NCBI GenBank assembly: GCA_903870815.1
Contig: CAIQEI010000144.1
Location: 1 to 33,866 of the forward strand
Length of the DNA stretch: 33,866 nt
DNA from: an uncultured Verrucomicrobia subdivision 3 bacterium
GTDB taxonomy: Bacteria > Verrucomicrobiota > Verrucomicrobiia > Limisphaerales > UBA11358
Direction: 5' to 3'
Position 1 is the stretch's first letter; every line of letters begins with the position of its first letter. The notes below the pieces were generated by a model. That model searched no databases. It saw only the letters and a program-made list of their open reading frames with translations, and had not been told where the DNA came from. Both the position numbers and the translations under genes were made by a program. Below are positions 3,287 through 33,866 of the stretch, one piece after another.

Positions 3287-6028
3287 ATGTGTGCTGCTGT
3301 CAGTGCTGAAAAAGCCCGGCTGGGTGCCGCCGGCGGGTTGAAAAATCCATGGCGGGCGTGGGGGCCGTATCTCTCCGAACGCCAGTGGGGCACCGTGCGC
3401 GAAGATTATTCGCCCGGCGGCACGGCGTGGGAATATTTTCCGCACGACCACGCCCGCAGCCGCGCCTACCGCTGGGGCGAGGACGGCATCGCCGGCGTCA
3501 GCGACGGCCTGCAACTGCTCTGCCTTTCGCTCGGGCTTTGGAACGGGAAGGATCCGATTTTGAAGGAGCGTTTTTTCGGCCTCACCAACGAGCAGGGCAA
3601 CCACGGCGAGGACGTGAAGGAACTTTATTTCTATCTCGACGCCACGCCGACGCATTCTTATCTGAAGGCGCTCTACAAGTATCCGCAAGGGGAGTTTCCC
3701 TACGCGCAGCTCTTGCAGGAGAATGCGCAGCGCGGCAAGAACCAGCCGGAATTTGAGCTGCTGGACACGGGGGTTTTCGACGATGACCGCTATTTTGACG
3801 TGTTCGTGGAATATGCCAAGGCCGCGCCCGAGGACATTTTGATGCGCGTGACGGTCCACAATCGCGGACCGGAGGCGGCGACGATCCATGTCCTGCCGCA
3901 CCTCTGGTTTCGCAACACCTGGTCCTGGGATAAGGAGCATCCGAAACCCAAGCTGCGCGCGGTGCGCGGCGGCTCGGCGGTGCTGGTGGAACATGAGGAC
4001 CTTGGCACCTTTGAATTTCACCCGGGCACGCTCAACGACGGGAAAATTCTGCCGGAACTCTTATTCACCGAAAACGAGACCAATACCCGGCGGATATTTG
4101 GAGACGAAACGGCCGCCGGTTTTTTCAAGGACGCGTTCCACGAGTATTTGGTCAACGGAAACCGTGAGGCGGTGAGTCCCAAGCGCGCCGGCACCAAAAT
4201 GTGCGCGCACTACGAACTGGAGGTTCCCGCCGGCGGCTCGCGCGAGCTCCGGCTGCGGCTCGCGCGCCAGTCCGGGGTGAAACCGTTCACGGACTTCGAC
4301 GCCGTTTTTTCCCGGCGCATCGCCGAGGCGGATGAATTTTACGCGGAGTTGCAGCAAGGTTTGGCGGATGACGACGTGCGCTCGGTCCAGCGGCAGGCGC
4401 TCGCGGGCATGATCTGGTCGAAACAGTTTTATCATTTCAACGTGCGGACGTGGTTGAACGGCGACCCGGCCCAGCCGCCGCCGCCGCGCGAACGCAAGCG
4501 CGGCCGCAATTCCGAATGGACGCACCTGAACAACGCCAACATCATTTCCATGCCGGACAAATGGGAATACCCGTGGTACGCCGCGTGGGACCTGGCCTTC
4601 CATTGCATACCCCTCGCGCTGGTGGACGCGGGGTTTGCCAAGCAGCAACTCGATTTGCTCACGCGCGAATGGTACATGCACCCGAACGGCCAGCTGCCCG
4701 CCTACGAATGGGCGTTCGGCGATGTCAACCCGCCGGTTCATGCCTGGGCGACCTGGCGCGTGTTCCAGATGGACCGCAAGCAGCGGCGCGAAACCGACGA
4801 ACACGACATGGGCGACGTGGAATTCCTTGAGCGCGTTTTCCACAAGCTGCTGTTGAATTTCACCTGGTGGGTCAACCGCAAGGATGCGCAGGGCCGGAAC
4901 ATTTTCCAGGGCGGATTCCTCGGCCTCGACAATATCGGCGTGTTCGATCGCAGCCAGCCGCTGCCCACCGGCGGCTTTATCAACCAGGCTGACGGCACGA
5001 GCTGGATGGCGATGTATTGCCTGAACCTACTCCGCATCTCGCTCGAACTGGCGCAGCACAACAAGGTTTATGAGGACATTGCGACGAAATTCTTCGAGCA
5101 TTTCCTGAGCATCGCCGCCGCCATCAACGGCGTGAGCGATGGCCACGGGGTCCTGCCCGAAGAGGGGCTCGCCCTTTGGGACGAGGTGGATGAATTTTAC
5201 TACGATGAACTGTGCCTGCCGGACGGCAAAAAAATTCCGCTCAAAGTCCGTTCCATGGTGGGGCTGGTCCCGCTGTTTGCCGTCGAGACCCTCGAGCCGG
5301 AATTATTGAAGCGCCTGCCCGACTTCACCGCGCGCATGGAATGGTTCCTCTCGCACCGGCCCGATCTGGCGAACCTGGTCTCGCGCTGGCAGGTGCACGG
5401 CGTGGGTGAGCGCCATCTGCTCTCGCTCCTACGCGGTCACCGGATGAAATGCCTGCTCCAACGCGCGCTCGACGCCTCGGAATTCCTGAGCGACTACGGC
5501 ATCCGCGCCCTTTCCAAGATTCACGAACAGAATCCGTTCCGGCTGGAATTCGGCGGGGTGGTCAATGAAGTCAGCTATTGGCCGGGCGAATCTGCCGGCG
5601 GGTTATTCGGCGGCAACTCCAACTGGCGCGGCCCGGTCTGGCTGCCGATGAATTTTCTGCTGATCGAGTCGCTCCAGAAATTTCACCATTACTACGGCGA
5701 TGAATTCAAGATCGAATGCCCGGTCGGCTCGGGAAAAATGCTCAACCTGGACGAAGCCGCTGAGGAGATTTCCAGCCGGCTCACGCGACTTTTCCTGAAG
5801 GATGAGAGTGGCCAGCGGCCGGCGCTGAAAAATTATCCCAAGTTCGCCGCCGATCCGCACTTTCGCAACTACGTGCTCTTCCATGAGTATTTTCACGGCG
5901 ACACCGGCCATGGTCTCGGGGCCGCCCACCAGACCGGCTGGACCGGCCTCGTCGCCAAACTCATCATGCCGCGCGCCGGCCTCCACCATCCATTTGACAC
6001 GATCCTTTTGAACCGGCCCAATCGCTGA
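3287..6028 (+). CDS. GH63-type glucosidase (MGH1-like glycoside hydrolase)
   Basis: This 913-residue protein matches the large bacterial GH63-like 'glucosidase' group in length and in its signature blocks. These are an N-terminal beta-sandwich region (WGPYLSERQWGTVREDYS, then LPHLWFRNTWSW near residue 205) and an (alpha/alpha)6 barrel. The barrel contains YPWYAAWDLAFH, with Asp435 in the position of the family general acid, and NSNWRGPVWLPMNFLLIE near residue 780. The tail HQTGWTGLVAKLI is also typical. The family acts by inversion on alpha-glucosidic or mannosylglycerate-type linkages. No signal peptide is evident, so it is probably cytoplasmic. The ATG at 3287 gives the conserved N-terminus; no ribosome binding site precedes it. 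The exact substrate is unknown. The gene stands alone and is not in an operon. Confidence 0.85.
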   Translation: MCAAVSAEKARLGAAGGLKNPWRAWGPYLSERQWGTVREDYSPGGTAWEYFPHDHARSRAYRWGEDGIAGVSDGLQLLCLSLGLWNGKDPILKERFFGLTNEQGNHGEDVKELYFYLDATPTHSYLKALYKYPQGEFPYAQLLQENAQRGKNQPEFELLDTGVFDDDRYFDVFVEYAKAAPEDILMRVTVHNRGPEAATIHVLPHLWFRNTWSWDKEHPKPKLRAVRGGSAVLVEHEDLGTFEFHPGTLNDGKILPELLFTENETNTRRIFGDETAAGFFKDAFHEYLVNGNREAVSPKRAGTKMCAHYELEVPAGGSRELRLRLARQSGVKPFTDFDAVFSRRIAEADEFYAELQQGLADDDVRSVQRQALAGMIWSKQFYHFNVRTWLNGDPAQPPPPRERKRGRNSEWTHLNNANIISMPDKWEYPWYAAWDLAFHCIPLALVDAGFAKQQLDLLTREWYMHPNGQLPAYEWAFGDVNPPVHAWATWRVFQMDRKQRRETDEHDMGDVEFLERVFHKLLLNFTWWVNRKDAQGRNIFQGGFLGLDNIGVFDRSQPLPTGGFINQADGTSWMAMYCLNLLRISLELAQHNKVYEDIATKFFEHFLSIAAAINGVSDGHGVLPEEGLALWDEVDEFYYDELCLPDGKKIPLKVRSMVGLVPLFAVETLEPELLKRLPDFTARMEWFLSHRPDLANLVSRWQVHGVGERHLLSLLRGHRMKCLLQRALDASEFLSDYGIRALSKIHEQNPFRLEFGGVVNEVSYWPGESAGGLFGGNSNWRGPVWLPMNFLLIESLQKFHHYYGDEFKIECPVGSGKMLNLDEAAEEISSRLTRLFLKDESGQRPALKNYPKFAADPHFRNYVLFHEYFHGDTGHGLGAAHQTGWTGLVAKLIMPRAGLHHPFDTILLNRPNR

Positions 6029-6340: not shown

Positions 6341-7516
6341 TTATTCCGAATAAAGTCCGCGTTCGCCGAGGCGGGCGAGCGTCCAGCCGTACTCCGCCGC
6401 GAGCTGCTCGACAACGGTTTTCGATTTAAATTCCGGCGGCAGCACTTCCCAGGTGTAGGTTTCCATTTCGAGGTGGGTGCAGATTTCAGGAGTCTGCGCC
6501 AGCAGGTCAAGCACGCCGAGCAGATGGTCGTTCGTATTCTCAAAGGGCGGGGCGGCGGGCGCATGGAGCGGAACGTGGAAGTGGATGCGCCATTCCTCCG
6601 GGTGGTGGTTGGCGGGCGACGGGTGACGGGTGAGCGCCTCGGGCAGATCGCGGTAAAAAGTACGTTGGCCGGATCCGTCGCGGACGATGACCTGGTGGAG
6701 ATAAACATCGTCGGAATATTTTTTCAATTCCGCGCGGACGGCCAATGTCGGCGAAACTTTGAGCGCGGAGCTCAAATGGATTTTGCTGATCGTGACGCCG
6801 TGGTTCACCAGGCCGGCGAGCGCGGTTTGCGGTTCCTCGAATTCCAGAGCGAAATGGCAGGTGTCGTAATTCACGCCCAGGTGTTCGTCTAGACGCGGGT
6901 CGTGCGGGTGTTCGGCGCGCAGTTGATCGAAGAAACGGATTGTCTCCGCAGTGTTTTCGAGCAGGCAAAGTGGTTCGGGTTCGAGTCCAAGATGCAATTG
7001 GCGTCCGGTTTTTTCGCTGACGCGGGCGATGTGCTCGACGCTGCGCCAGAGGTTTTCGCGGATGATTTTGAGGGCGGTTTCGTCGGGTTGGAATTCCTTG
7101 AAGGAGCCGGGCAGGGTGCTAACGCTACCGGCGACGCCGGCGGGCAGCAGTTCCGCGAGCAGGTCGAACAGCCGGTTGGTGTAGGTCACGCGATCGGGTG
7201 AAGTCCAGTCGGGTCGGTAAACTTGCTCCTTGACGCGCTGACCGTGGAACCGGCCGTAGGGGAATCCGTTGAGGGTGAAAACGTAGCAGTAATTTTTTTC
7301 GAGCCAGCGCTGAAACTGCAGCCGCTTGGCGCGGTCGCTCAGTTCGCCGGCGGCGCATTCGCTCAGTCGCAAACCGATGGCGAAGGGTTTTTTCGGACAG
7401 ACTTTTCCCCGGACGGCCAGTGTATGATTTTGGAGCGAATGAAACGTTTCATCCCAGGTTTCTCCGCGATGGATGTTGGTGCAGTAGGCGAGATGGAGCG
7501 AATGATTCAGTTGCAT
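6341..7516 (-). CDS. eboE: EboE-like TIM-barrel protein (metabolite traffic protein)
   Basis: The 391-residue protein starts MQLNHSLHLAYCTNIHRGETW and contains FAIGLRLS, FTLNGFPYGRFHG, VSTLPGSFK, LGLEPEP and VNYDTCHFALEFE. These blocks are characteristic of EboE, a xylose-isomerase-like TIM-barrel protein of the ebo/edb clusters. Such clusters in cyanobacteria and other bacteria are linked to moving a precursor metabolite to the periplasm. EboE's own reaction is unknown. The ATG at 7516 was chosen over the first possible codon at 7576 because homology begins there. No eboA, B, C, D or F gene is visible in the window, so the gene is an orphan here. It has no recognisable ribosome binding site. 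Confidence 0.8.
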   Translation of the reverse strand: MQLNHSLHLAYCTNIHRGETWDETFHSLQNHTLAVRGKVCPKKPFAIGLRLSECAAGELSDRAKRLQFQRWLEKNYCYVFTLNGFPYGRFHGQRVKEQVYRPDWTSPDRVTYTNRLFDLLAELLPAGVAGSVSTLPGSFKEFQPDETALKIIRENLWRSVEHIARVSEKTGRQLHLGLEPEPLCLLENTAETIRFFDQLRAEHPHDPRLDEHLGVNYDTCHFALEFEEPQTALAGLVNHGVTISKIHLSSALKVSPTLAVRAELKKYSDDVYLHQVIVRDGSGQRTFYRDLPEALTRHPSPANHHPEEWRIHFHVPLHAPAAPPFENTNDHLLGVLDLLAQTPEICTHLEMETYTWEVLPPEFKSKTVVEQLAAEYGWTLARLGERGLYSE

Positions 7517-8556: not shown

Positions 8557-9125
8557 GTCTTTCGGCGCACCCCGCGCGTCGGCGTGAAAATAAAATCCAC
8601 CTTCGCGTCGTGTGGTTCCATCGGGATTTTTTCCAGTAATTGAAAATCATGGCACACGCCGCATTTTATCCCGCTCGCTTCCGCCAAAATCCGGTCATAA
8701 AAACCCTGTCCGCGACCGAGCCGGTTGCCGCTTAAATCGAACGCCAAACCCGGCACGAGAATCAGATCAAATCTGTTCAAAGGAATTTCCGCACAGCTTG
8801 TCGCTGGTTCGCGCACACCGAATTTTCCGACAACAATGTCCGCCGCCAGGTTTTGCAATTGGCGCGCGCCGTAAGTTTTTTTCGCACTGTCGAAAAAGGG
8901 CAGCGCGCAATTGGTTCCCAGCGCGAGCGACAGTTCCAGCATGGGCCAGACATCCAGCTCGTCCGGCATCGGCGCGAAAAACAAAATAGTGTGTGCGCTC
9001 GGTATCTGTGCCTTCAGCCGCTCGCACAGGTCAATGGATTCTACCGCCCGAACTGCCGGCGAAATCTTTTCCAGCCGGGAGCGGATTATGACCCGCAAGT
9101 TGGATTTGGCATCTGGCATGTTCAT
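8553..9125 (-). CDS. ygfA: 5-formyltetrahydrofolate cyclo-ligase
   Basis: The 190-residue protein carries the family's nucleotide and folate signature, VPGLAFDLSGNRLGRGQGFYDR, at about 124-145, and the upstream blocks ILFFAPMPDELD and CALPFFD. The enzyme uses ATP to convert 5-formyl-THF to 5,10-methenyl-THF in the cytoplasm, salvaging an inhibitory folate. The ATG at 9125 was chosen because it overlaps the TGA of rarA in an ATGA arrangement, the hallmark of translational coupling. A longer frame reaches 9167, and another ATG lies at 9119. Its position after rarA and a structured RNA recalls the 6S RNA-ygfA arrangement of proteobacteria. The length is normal. Confidence 0.92.
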   Translation of the reverse strand: MNMPDAKSNLRVIIRSRLEKISPAVRAVESIDLCERLKAQIPSAHTILFFAPMPDELDVWPMLELSLALGTNCALPFFDSAKKTYGARQLQNLAADIVVGKFGVREPATSCAEIPLNRFDLILVPGLAFDLSGNRLGRGQGFYDRILAEASGIKCGVCHDFQLLEKIPMEPHDAKVDFIFTPTRGVRRKT

Positions 9126-10539: not shown

Positions 10540-10735
10540 GAAAAAAGCCCGCAACGGGTGGCGGGCTTTGATTTCAACCGTGAAAATCACCGTTGAAATC
10601 TTGAAAGAACCCCACCCTTGCCGTGTGGAACTCGATTCTTTGAACATGTATCGCTACATGTGGAACTTGCTCGGCGGCTTTCGACTTCCATTGAAGGCAT
10701 GTCGGCCGCCACCGGAACTCGTCCCGTGATCGTTT
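10540..10735 (-). ncRNA. structured small RNA, candidate 6S RNA
   Basis: About 195 bases with no coding sign can be folded into a series of hairpins on the minus strand, ending in an intrinsic terminator. Visible elements are GGCGGC/GCCGCC enclosing an inner hairpin (about 10674-10709), and a perfect 7-bp stem ACATGTA/TACATGT closed by a GCGA (GNRA) tetraloop at 10644-10661. There is also AAAGAATC pairing with GGTTCTTT, and a stem GATTTCAAC/GTTGAAATC at 10569-10599. The GNRA loop exists only on the minus strand. Three spaced copies of GAGTTCC/AAGTTCC occur. A TTGGCA box, 17 bases and ATTAAA upstream could be a promoter. Length and position ahead of rarA and ygfA suggest 6S RNA, but the rod-like 6S fold is not clear to me. 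A leader RNA of rarA is the alternative. Confidence 0.5.
10544..10569 (-). terminator. strong intrinsic terminator ending the small RNA
   Basis: AAAGCCCGC and GCGGGCTTT form a perfect 9-bp stem with an 8-base loop. On the minus strand the stem runs directly into further T residues (TTTTTTCTTTT counting from the stem). It therefore terminates minus-strand transcription about 40 bases before rarA. Confidence 0.8.
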
Positions 10736-10972
10736 TAATTACGGTTCAAGGACTGTTGCCAATCACGAACAGGGCAGGAAAATTGTTTTTTGCAAAGAGC
10801 GATCTGAACTGATTAGAAAATCGGCCGTGTCCGGTCTTTTCTCAAGTGAAATTTTCAAAAAAAATTGCGCGTTTCCGCAACTAAAACTTGCGTTCGTACC
10901 GCTGATGGCGGGTAATTAAATTTCGGCCACGTATTTCCGGGTGTTCGGCAGACCCGTTTCCGCGGAGAATGG

Positions 10973-19640: not shown

Positions 19641-19715
19641 GCGCGGTTAGCTCAGTGGTAGAGCATTACCTTGACACGGTAGGGGTCGGAGGTTCGAAAC
19701 CTCCACCGCGCACCA
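19641..19715 (+). tRNA. tRNA-Val (anticodon GAC)
   Basis: The acceptor stem GCGCGGT/ACCGCGC closes perfectly. The D-arm is GCTC...GAGC. The anticodon arm TTACC-TTGACAC-GGTAG gives GAC at 19673-19675. The T-arm is GGAGG-TTCGAAA-CCTCC. Discriminator A is followed by an encoded CCA. It reads GUC/GUU valine codons. Confidence 0.97.
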
Positions 19716-27708: not shown

Positions 27709-27731
27709 TGGAGCGGGTGATGGGAATCGAA
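27707..27731. repeat. att-like repeat within tRNA-Gly (proximal)
   Basis: This is the copy of the 25-bp repeat that forms the 3' end of tRNA-Gly. It differs from the distal copy at 22754-22778 at one base only (G for T). Confidence 0.7.
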
Positions 27732-27782
27732 CCCACGTATGCAGCTTGGAAGGTTGCCGTTCTACCATTGAACTACACCCGC
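27709..27782 (-). tRNA. tRNA-Gly (anticodon TCC)
   Basis: On the minus strand the acceptor stem GCGGGTG/CACCCGC closes perfectly, with discriminator T and an encoded CCA. The anticodon loop CTTCCAA gives TCC, and the T-loop is TTCGATT. The whole cloverleaf is intact. It reads GGA and GGG glycine codons. Its 3' end is duplicated at 22754-22778. Confidence 0.97.
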
Positions 27783-31546: not shown

Positions 31547-31882
31547 ATGAGTTCGGACGAGCGCGAAATTTTTCATTATCTCAAGACCTGGGGCGCAGAA
31601 TTCACCGGGGCCAAGGAAGTCAGCCGCCGGGCCGGCACCAAGCAGCGTTTTCATGAAGATCCCGACTGGGCCAAGCCGTTATTAATGGCCATGACTGAAC
31701 GCGGTGTGCTTGAGGTTGATTCGATGGGGCGTTACCGCATCAAACCCGAACGCAAAAAGGGCGGCAAACAGCGTTGGGTCTCCCCGGACATCGAAAAAAT
31801 TCTCAAGGAAAAGGGCGTCGAGGTGGAAGGCGCCGGCAGTGAAGGCGGCCTGGCTCCCGACGAACATTACGAGCAACTCTGA
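31547..31882 (+). CDS. small winged-helix-like protein of unknown function
   Basis: The 111-residue protein reads MSSDEREIFHYLKTWGAEFTG at its start (first 20 shown in part), then KEVSRRAG. Its shape (helix, helix with AKEVSRRAG, then beta-hairpin LEVDSMGRYRIKP) looks like a winged-helix DNA-binding fold. The end is charged (KEKGVEVEG). I recognise similar hypothetical proteins in Verrucomicrobiota but no assigned function. ATG at 31547 is preferred over 31529. The stop overlaps the start of the transporter gene by one base (TGATG), so expression is coupled. It could regulate DNA-related or transporter functions, but this is a guess. Confidence 0.65.
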   Translation: MSSDEREIFHYLKTWGAEFTGAKEVSRRAGTKQRFHEDPDWAKPLLMAMTERGVLEVDSMGRYRIKPERKKGGKQRWVSPDIEKILKEKGVEVEGAGSEGGLAPDEHYEQL

Positions 31883-32799
31883 TGCTCGCCGCGCTGGTCA
31901 CGACGCTGCTTTTCGCCACCTCCGCCGTGTGCGGCTACCGGACGGCGAAACAAATCGGCGGCCTGGAGGCTAATTTCTGGCGCATCACGCTGGCCACGGT
32001 ATTTCTGACCGTCTGGGCATGGACATTCGGCGCGGGTTTTGCCGGCGCGCCGGAATGGTTCATGTGGAGCGGGCTTTTCGGGATCGGCCTCGGGGATTCC
32101 GCGTATTTTCAGGCCCTGCCCCGGCTGGGCAGCCGCCGGACCGTGTTGATCACGCAGTGCCTCACCGCGCCGTTCGCCGCGTTGATTGAATGGCTCTGGC
32201 TCGGCACCAAAATGAACGTGCCGGAATTGCTTTGCGTGGCCGTGATCCTCACCGGGGTCGCCATCGCGTTGGCGCCCGGCGACCACCTGAAGATTTCCAC
32301 GCGCGACTGGCAAATCGGCCTCACTGCCAGCCTATTTGCCGCGCTGGGCGGCGCGCTGGGTGCCGTCATCATCCGCAAAGGTTACGCCGCCATCCAAGCC
32401 GCCGGCATGGACATTGACGCCGGCACCACCGGCTACCAGCGCGTGCTGGGCGGAATTCTTATCCCCACCATCGCATTGTTCATTTTCAAATGGCGCTCCG
32501 CGCCCACGCACGGCGGCTGGCGGGAGGGAAAAACCTGGCGGGTCTCCCGCGAGAAATGGTTGCGGCTCTGGCCCTGGGTGCTGGCCAACGCGCTGGCCGG
32601 CCAGACGCTCGGGGTGACCTGCATGCAGTGGGCGCTCAAGACCACGCCGGCCGGCATCGTGACCGCCATCATCGCCACCACGCCGATTGTGCTGCTGCCG
32701 ATGACCCGCATCGTCGAAGGCGAAAAGATCGGGTTCCGCTCCCTGGCCGGCGCGCTCATCGCGGTCGGCGGTGTGATCGGCCTGACCCTATTCCGCTGA
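31882..32799 (+). CDS. EamA-family (DMT superfamily) transporter
   Basis: The 305-residue protein has about ten membrane helices arranged as two EamA repeats. Helices begin at LAALVTTLLFATSAVCGY, and the second half closes with WALKTTPAGIVTAIIATTPIVLLPM and IAVGGVIGLTLF. The loop pattern, including LGDSAYFQALPRLGSRRTVLI, fits drug/metabolite exporters of the inner membrane. The substrate cannot be inferred. The start overlaps the stop of the upstream gene by one base. Immediately after its TGA begins an IS481-type remnant, so the 3' neighbourhood has been rearranged. The protein itself appears complete. Confidence 0.85.
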   Translation: MLAALVTTLLFATSAVCGYRTAKQIGGLEANFWRITLATVFLTVWAWTFGAGFAGAPEWFMWSGLFGIGLGDSAYFQALPRLGSRRTVLITQCLTAPFAALIEWLWLGTKMNVPELLCVAVILTGVAIALAPGDHLKISTRDWQIGLTASLFAALGGALGAVIIRKGYAAIQAAGMDIDAGTTGYQRVLGGILIPTIALFIFKWRSAPTHGGWREGKTWRVSREKWLRLWPWVLANALAGQTLGVTCMQWALKTTPAGIVTAIIATTPIVLLPMTRIVEGEKIGFRSLAGALIAVGGVIGLTLFR

Positions 32800-32987: not shown

Positions 32988-33169
32988 CACCCATGCCGAA
33001 AAACCACGGCAGGAAGTGTACAAAGTAAAGAACCCTTTCGGGAAAACCGTGAATGGACACGCGACCTGAGCTATTGAGCAACGCGAACACAATTCGTTCA
33101 AGCCTGGCCGGCGATTGAGGCGCGGGTGGTGGGGATTTTTACGGGGACTGGTTGGCTCTAACTTGCCAT

Positions 33170-33180
33170 GTTAGGCGGCT
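33170..33180. repeat. inverted repeat, left (GTTAGGCGGCT)
   Basis: This 11-bp sequence is the exact reverse complement of 33631-33641. It includes a GTTRRRY-type motif that integron integrases use as a crossover site. Confidence 0.65.
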
Positions 33181-33183
33181 GGT

Positions 33184-33621
33184 TCATTTATCACCTAGAA
33201 ACTGCTCGTTTGGCAATGGTTGCCTGACTGATTCGATAATGTATGTCCCGTTGGCTGGGTGACTTTTGAATCGCTCGGGCTTTCCTGGCTCTGACACAAT
33301 CCGCCTCATCATCACTTTCACGCGACTGTGCTCGCGATCTAACGTAATGGTGCCAACGCAACGAATGTCTGGAGGATTGTCTTGGAATAATGGATTTGTG
33401 AATGTCGGGCCGCTGCCTCGGAGGTCAGCATAGTAGCTTGTATTCTGATAACCAATAAACCCGTCTGAACTCCAAAACCCTTCCCACCGACGAGCCGTAA
33501 TGTCTAGGTTCAAATGGTCTGGGGTTCTTACAACCAAGACTGCGTGGTCTTTCGGTGTCGTGGTGCAACCAGAAAGCAACACCATGAAAAAACCAACAAA
33601 AAGAATGAGTCTGATTTTCAT
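33184..33621 (-). CDS. putative lipoprotein of unknown function
   Basis: The ATG at 33621 gives 145 residues with a lipoprotein signal MKIRLILFVGFFMVLLSGC, lipobox LSGC at Cys19, followed by TTTPKDH. The rest forms a beta-rich domain with WEGFWSSDGFIGYQN and IRCVGTITLDREHSRVKVMM. I recognise no family. Codon and base use is more AT-rich than in neighbouring core genes, which suggests acquisition. An alternative TTG start at 33630 adds three residues. The gene is framed by an 11-bp inverted repeat and neighbours an attC-like sequence, as an integron cassette gene would be. Confidence 0.7.
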   Translation of the reverse strand: MKIRLILFVGFFMVLLSGCTTTPKDHAVLVVRTPDHLNLDITARRWEGFWSSDGFIGYQNTSYYADLRGSGPTFTNPLFQDNPPDIRCVGTITLDREHSRVKVMMRRIVSEPGKPERFKSHPANGTYIIESVRQPLPNEQFLGDK

Positions 33622-33630
33622 CACACGCAA

Positions 33631-33641
33631 AGCCGCCTAAC
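33631..33641. repeat. inverted repeat, right (AGCCGCCTAAC)
   Basis: The exact reverse complement of 33170-33180. It contains GCCTAAC, which fits the RYYYAAC simple site of attC. Confidence 0.65.
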
Positions 33642-33732
33642 GCCCAGTAATGAGCCACGCCGGGCCTGCGACGCCGCCCGCGCACGCGGACTTACTGCGT
33701 CAATCGGCGACGGCTCCGGCGCATTGTTGGAC
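33635..33732 (+). other. attC-like recombination site
   Basis: RYYYAAC (GCCTAAC, 33635-33641) and GTTRRRY (GTTGGAC, 33726-33732) bound a 98-bp imperfect palindrome. AATG pairs with CATT, AGCC with GGCT and CGCCG with CGGCG, with extra-helical bases on one side, as in attC hairpins. The size is within the known attC range (57-141 bp). Confidence 0.45.
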
Positions 33733-33866
33733 GAAGCCGCTGCGCGGCGTGGGGCTGGGGCTTTCAGGCTTCGCATGATTGGACGCTTTGGTGATTTGTT
33801 TCGGTTGGGTTTTCGCTGACCTTGGTAAAAGGCGATGCCAGCTAACGGGCTGGCACCGCGTTTTAA
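33733..33866. other. window end, no gene seen
   Basis: After GTTGGAC, 134 bases run to the window edge without a start-to-stop frame that looks like a gene. It may be the beginning of a further cassette. Confidence 0.4.

Follow-up and report, generated by a model that had tools for sequence, protein, structure and literature searches.

Integron integrases (IntI) recombine the folded bottom strand of an attC site, at its R' box, with attI or with another attC, and the attC heptamers follow the consensus RYYYAAC/GTTRRRY. In PMC2727003, attC sites are described as 57-142 nt long with complementary R'' and R' boxes at their boundaries, the extra-helical bases sit on the R''-L'' arm, and most cassettes show self-pairing past the R boxes that amounts to 9-11 nt. 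Clusters of attC sites that lack an integron integrase are called CALINs, for which IntegronFinder 2.0 asks by default for at least two attC sites (available text of PMC9024848). Insertion of cassettes at attG sites across a genome is described in PMC12901181, with reference to Loot et al. 2024.

The window analysed here comprises contig C144 in full (33866 bp). It comes from a genome bin of an uncultured Verrucomicrobia subdivision 3 bacterium that is 96% complete and totals 3.17 Mb over 176 contigs. We are highly confident that the end of the window carries the final part of an integron cassette array for which no integrase has been found, that is, an array of the CALIN type. The likeness to CALINs lies in attC sites between short cassette genes with no intI found beside them; the difference is that the window contig carries one attC, the array partners being inferred from ends shared with contigs C43 and C145. 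Chromosomal integrons of the same genus (G011, G014, G001 and G016) have the same attC sequence and structure, and the same cassette ends made of a box plus an extension, but they possess an integrase over the cut-off, whereas the window genome holds only degenerate fragments. With attG-mediated insertion, as described in PMC12901181, the window genome has in common that cassettes occur in many places of one genome.

Table 1. Features of the window and related repeats in other contigs (positions in the window unless a contig is named).
Feature	Position	Strand	Remarks
attC site	33635..33732	-	found by models R1 and R2, window in neither
attC boxes	R'' 33732-33726; R' 33641-33635	-	R'' GTCCAAC; R' GTTAGGC
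3' end of preceding cassette R (inferred)	33733..33866	-	reads into R'' GTCCAAC; reaches contig end
Gene cassette	33170..33641	-	R' GTTAGGC (+GGCT) at 33641 to R'' (AGCC+) GCCTAAC at 33170
Lipoprotein-type gene	33184..33621	-	ATG start, 145 aa, LLSGC
Expected own attC of cassette	33086..33176 (extent is a guess)	-	R'' GCCTAAC and attC-like GAGCCAACC
EamA-family transporter	31882..32799	+	PF00892, E = 1.1e-23; ordinary chromosomal neighbour beyond the array
Leader repeats, group 1 (G000)	C136 1180-1470; C145 2988-3212; C82 589-634; C137 25156-25201		
Leader repeats, group 2 (G000)	C134 47519-47689, 47998-48108; C30 17406-17555, 17968-18066; C44 12666-12808		
Leader repeats, group 3 (G000)	C32 46040-46209; C132 9887-10056		
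Terminal segments	L070 (C134) about 5935-5985, 6535-6585; L211 (C30); L058 (C43) about 5775-5795		
Terminal segments, further	C32 44986-45110; C132 8897-9023; C56 14792-14912		

The original prediction had drawn attention to GTTAGGC and GCCTAAC boxes that frame an AT-rich lipoprotein gene as part of an 11-bp inverted repeat. The letters of the window agree, with GTTAGGC at 33170-33176, GCCTAAC at 33635-33641 and an exact repeat at 33170-33180 and 33631-33641; the lipoprotein-type open reading frame between the boxes is indeed AT-rich (G+C 0.476, versus 0.583 for the window). By itself the 11-bp repeat is common in the window and not rare: nine 11-mer inverted pairs spaced 250-700 bp are present, this one included, and two of them overlap. 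GTTRRRY and RYYYAAC occur at 24 and 21 sites, and the 33170/33635 pair is the sole box pair in the window complementary at seven of seven positions with a spacing of 130-1500 bp. A 98-bp palindrome bounded by GCCTAAC and GTTGGAC had also been proposed; its span, 33635-33732, stood, but folding beyond that of shuffled DNA did not, as the DNA folding energy of the 98-mer lies at the shuffle mean (z = 0.23 on the plus strand and -0.25 on the minus strand). Single-strand folding was dropped as evidence for that reason; the attC claim rests on homology and covariance models. Also discarded was a strict box pattern, which in the window genome found the window site only, versus 11 matches for the reversed control, and which carries no weight; the genome count of GCCTAAC (62, versus 996 for the reversed pattern, an unfair control) served solely to locate places. 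At the gathering threshold an Rfam scan of the window gave three matches, all of them ordinary and none at the attC site: two tRNA genes (19641-19712 and 27712-27782) and a 6S RNA (10605-10783).

Two covariance models, neither of which contains the window, bear on the candidate site. R1 was built from 15 attC-like sites, ten from other contigs of the same genome and five from the same genus (G011 and G014); a site called A, the C56 site, C145 3904-4025 and two sites of G022 were dropped as odd or poorly aligned. In the R1 training alignment 84.9% of the cells pair under the attC structure, as against 24-38% with the partners slid by one to three columns and a mean of 77.2% in shuffles, none of 500 of which was as high. 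Eight of the 18 pairs vary on both sides; further pair types in this alignment were not above shuffles (188 of 500). R1 aligns at full length to 33732-33635 on the minus strand (82.1 bits, E = 7.7e-25) and finds nothing further in the window at E ≤ 10. R2, made from the 22 matches that R1 gave at E ≤ 0.01 in 91 regions of other genomes surrounding intI matches, has the same site on the same strand as its sole match in the window (51.3 bits, E = 1.8e-11), a result not wholly independent of the first, since the R2 sites were gathered with the partly own-genome-trained R1 and five of the 22 are in R1. The covariance-model match that had been called for is therefore present with our own models. 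On the minus strand the 98-nt site is bounded by GTCCAAC and GTTAGGC, which pair at six of seven positions, one of these as G-T, and a comparison of the arms GAGCCGTCGCCG and GAGCCACGCCG gives one extra base on the R''-L'' arm. Judged from sequence, the stretch 33635-33732 very probably represents a true attC.

Sites of this kind are not confined to the window. With 150 of 2319 candidates scored, R1 has at least 26 matches in the genome at E ≤ 1, ten of the 26 being training sites, and at least 19 on 12 contigs under E 0.01; R2 has 13 matches at E ≤ 1. The sequence and strand of the attC, the cassette boundaries and the further sites in the same genome are all computed results.

The cassette itself is bounded by boxes of its own, which pair at seven of seven positions within a cassette-specific 11-bp inverted repeat. 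Its gene product has no Pfam family, and searches of 48 further genomes from the genus and of 72,556 plasmid records gave no match to the gene; neither did a pattern scan of viral contigs, a method that picks up close relatives only. We take the LLSGC motif to be a lipobox; the protein may be membrane-anchored, a candidate role drawn from this one motif. Downstream of the gene there is an R'' box, and the best model match with filters off in 33000-33640 reached 4.7 bits (E = 0.94). We read the cassette's own attC as degenerate or lost, and the lipoprotein cassette as the last of the array.

How far does the pairing of cassette ends extend past the boxes? Among 16 cassettes of the window genome inspected by hand, 14 have at least three extra complementary bases (mean 3.75), as compared with 20 of 240 swapped end pairs and a maximum of 2.69 among the means of 20,000 permutations; the cassettes and box positions were picked by eye, which favours this result. 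Left out were at least eight cassettes on C145 and C136 with unassignable ends, a second on C56, and those of C82:7210-8700, C30, C112, C109, C103 and C74. In 80 intI loci from many phyla the array side shows the extension in 32 of 179 box pairs and the other side in one of 96, these being pairs and not proven cassettes. In an uncontrolled count, ends with a box plus extension occur in seven of 12 loci around intI matches and in eight of 20 loci of relatives. Two automatic detectors found 12 and 8 cassettes in the 80 loci, too few to lean on, with mean own-end extensions of 1.83 and 1.88, versus 1.17 and 1.25 for the next cassette and 0.42 and 0.57 when permuted. When thresholds were compared, a score of 9 gave 60 real versus 5 shuffled sites on both strands, a comparison in which palindromes may count twice and the box filter was slightly stricter than that of the second detector. 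That the repeat is extended in a cassette-specific way had seemed to us a possible novelty, an idea dropped because such extension is general across phyla and already stated in PMC2727003. On the minus strand the window fits both features given there, the extra base on the R''-L'' arm and the extended pairing.

What lies beyond the contig end, 134 bases past the attC? The last 141 bases of C43 and of the window are identical, with three mismatches in the last 155; both break off at one and the same position, and the beginning of C145 falls within this sequence. C145, which shares the junction sequence, holds two arrays of short co-directional genes with attC sites between them, and seven of the at least 19 R1 matches under E 0.01 (150 of 2319 candidates scored) lie on it. 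The additional sites that the original prediction had sought to the right of 33866 could thus be looked for on these other contigs only. An identical 140-bp stretch that holds site A lies at an end of each of C44, C82 and C137. We infer that GTTGGACGAAACCGC, on the side of A, and GCGGCTTCGTCCAAC, on the side of the window, would be the ends of one repeated cassette, R, collapsed by the assembler. R may be present in three copies or more, and its interior was not found in the bin. Contig C16 of G022 (L094) also begins with an R-like end.

No integron integrase passes the TIGR02249 cut-off in the bin, in which seven matches fall short of it. Two Xer-like recombinases, one on C66 and one on C94, account for four of these, and their best NCBIfam families are of the Xer type; two more matches fall in a C86 recombinase with an interrupted frame, and one in a C85 fragment. 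Because all 14 control genomes give matches at the lax limit, and none of them passes the cut-off, only the cut-off counts. An integrase over it is present in seven of 24 other genomes of the genus and in 11 of the 40 genomes searched, the window genome included; that of G011 scores 434.7 bits. The presence of integron integrases beside matching cassettes in the same genus is also a computed result. In place of intI and attI beside an array, the window genome yielded solely degenerate intI-like fragments, at C82:7206-7078 (about 43 residues) and C85:37629-37892 (63-73 residues). Near the window site no intI is found, as seen on one side, the contig ending 134 bases beyond the site. We note that the C82 fragment directly adjoins a cassette array recognised by eye, C82:7210-8700, where there is one model match (8591-8688).

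On which strand does the array lie? Both models place the R'' box on the 33732 side of the site and the R' box on the 33635 side. On this reading the lipoprotein gene is assigned the normal direction, in an array read on the minus strand, with the attC at 33635-33732 assigned to the preceding cassette R and not to the lipoprotein cassette. The original prediction of an integron cassette with an attC and no nearby integrase in a Verrucomicrobiota chromosome is borne out, but not its orientation: it had the gene pointing away from the attC, which it called unusual, by reading the site on the wrong strand. A palindromic site so read makes a normal cassette appear reversed. We consider it very unlikely that the array is instead on the plus strand, with the gene reversed in its cassette and 33635-33732 as the cassette's own attC. 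That layout would be suited by the complementary boxes at both cassette ends, and by a flank shared with C6, which would place the leader on the left; yet both models align the site solely on the minus strand, the extra base falls on the R''-L'' arm in the minus reading only, the homologous C145 sites come after genes in the minus reading, and R' is separated from the ATG by 13 bases. The flank in question, left of 33090 (33030-33090), recurs by eye on C6 (L066) at about 6420-6500 and so adjoins two unlike cassettes, but on contrary sides with respect to the assigned array directions. On C6 it lies outward of a cassette yet on the presumed leader side, an observation that does not agree with the minus-strand reading and would suit the opposite orientation.

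Is an integron needed at all? An orphan gene next to a palindrome that is REP-like or arose by chance would account for fold z-scores near zero and for 11-bp inverted repeats being common in the window, but the E-values of R1 and R2, the arrays of C145, and the intI-linked loci of the genus with the same kind of cassette ends make such an explanation scarcely credible. A different origin, compatible with an array of the CALIN type, is that the group began with an attG-type insertion at one of the dispersed secondary sites and was never headed by a true attI and intI. The many short cassette groups across contigs would suit this, and attG insertion has a precedent in the work cited at the outset. 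We nevertheless regard it as rather unlikely, as a cassette end and an attC precede the gene, so that the group has at least two cassettes, and as the C82 array lies beside a degenerate intI-like fragment that points to a former true integron.

For an integrase-less array on the minus strand, the order would be the preceding cassette R, the attC at 33732-33635, the lipoprotein cassette at 33641-33170, and then the chromosome. The lipoprotein cassette may have been placed by an IntI since lost from the lineage, or the intI gene may be missing from the assembly; the cassette could still be moved in trans.

The many short arrays behind repeated leaders are the least ordinary feature of this genome, and are worth a further look. 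Three leader families, Y, X and Z, are repeats that run up to the first cassette's R' box in separate short arrays (Table 1). By eye, the leaders that were read have a short hairpin 6-20 bp before the box, and G011 has a similar hairpin before the first cassette beside intI. In several last cassettes a cassette-specific box is followed by a repeated terminal segment (T or T2) with no recognisable attC. In sharing repeated leaders among several places the window genome is unlike attG insertion; we know of no such shared leader sequences there. One scenario is a dispersed system of short arrays, several of them behind a few repeated attI-like leaders and some closed by repeated terminal segments in place of an attC, in which intI has decayed and copying of leaders, as opposed to the growth of a single array, spread the landing sites. 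At present we hold this to be quite doubtful.

The locus is very probably an ordinary integrase-less array, a known kind of element. Among the papers listed in our literature searches none is titled on the integrons of Verrucomicrobia subdivision 3, though PMC7923331 mentions Verrucomicrobia once; the locus adds an integrase-less cassette array for this group. If copying of leaders did spread the landing sites, the arrays of this genome would bear on how one genome gains many places at which cassettes can land.
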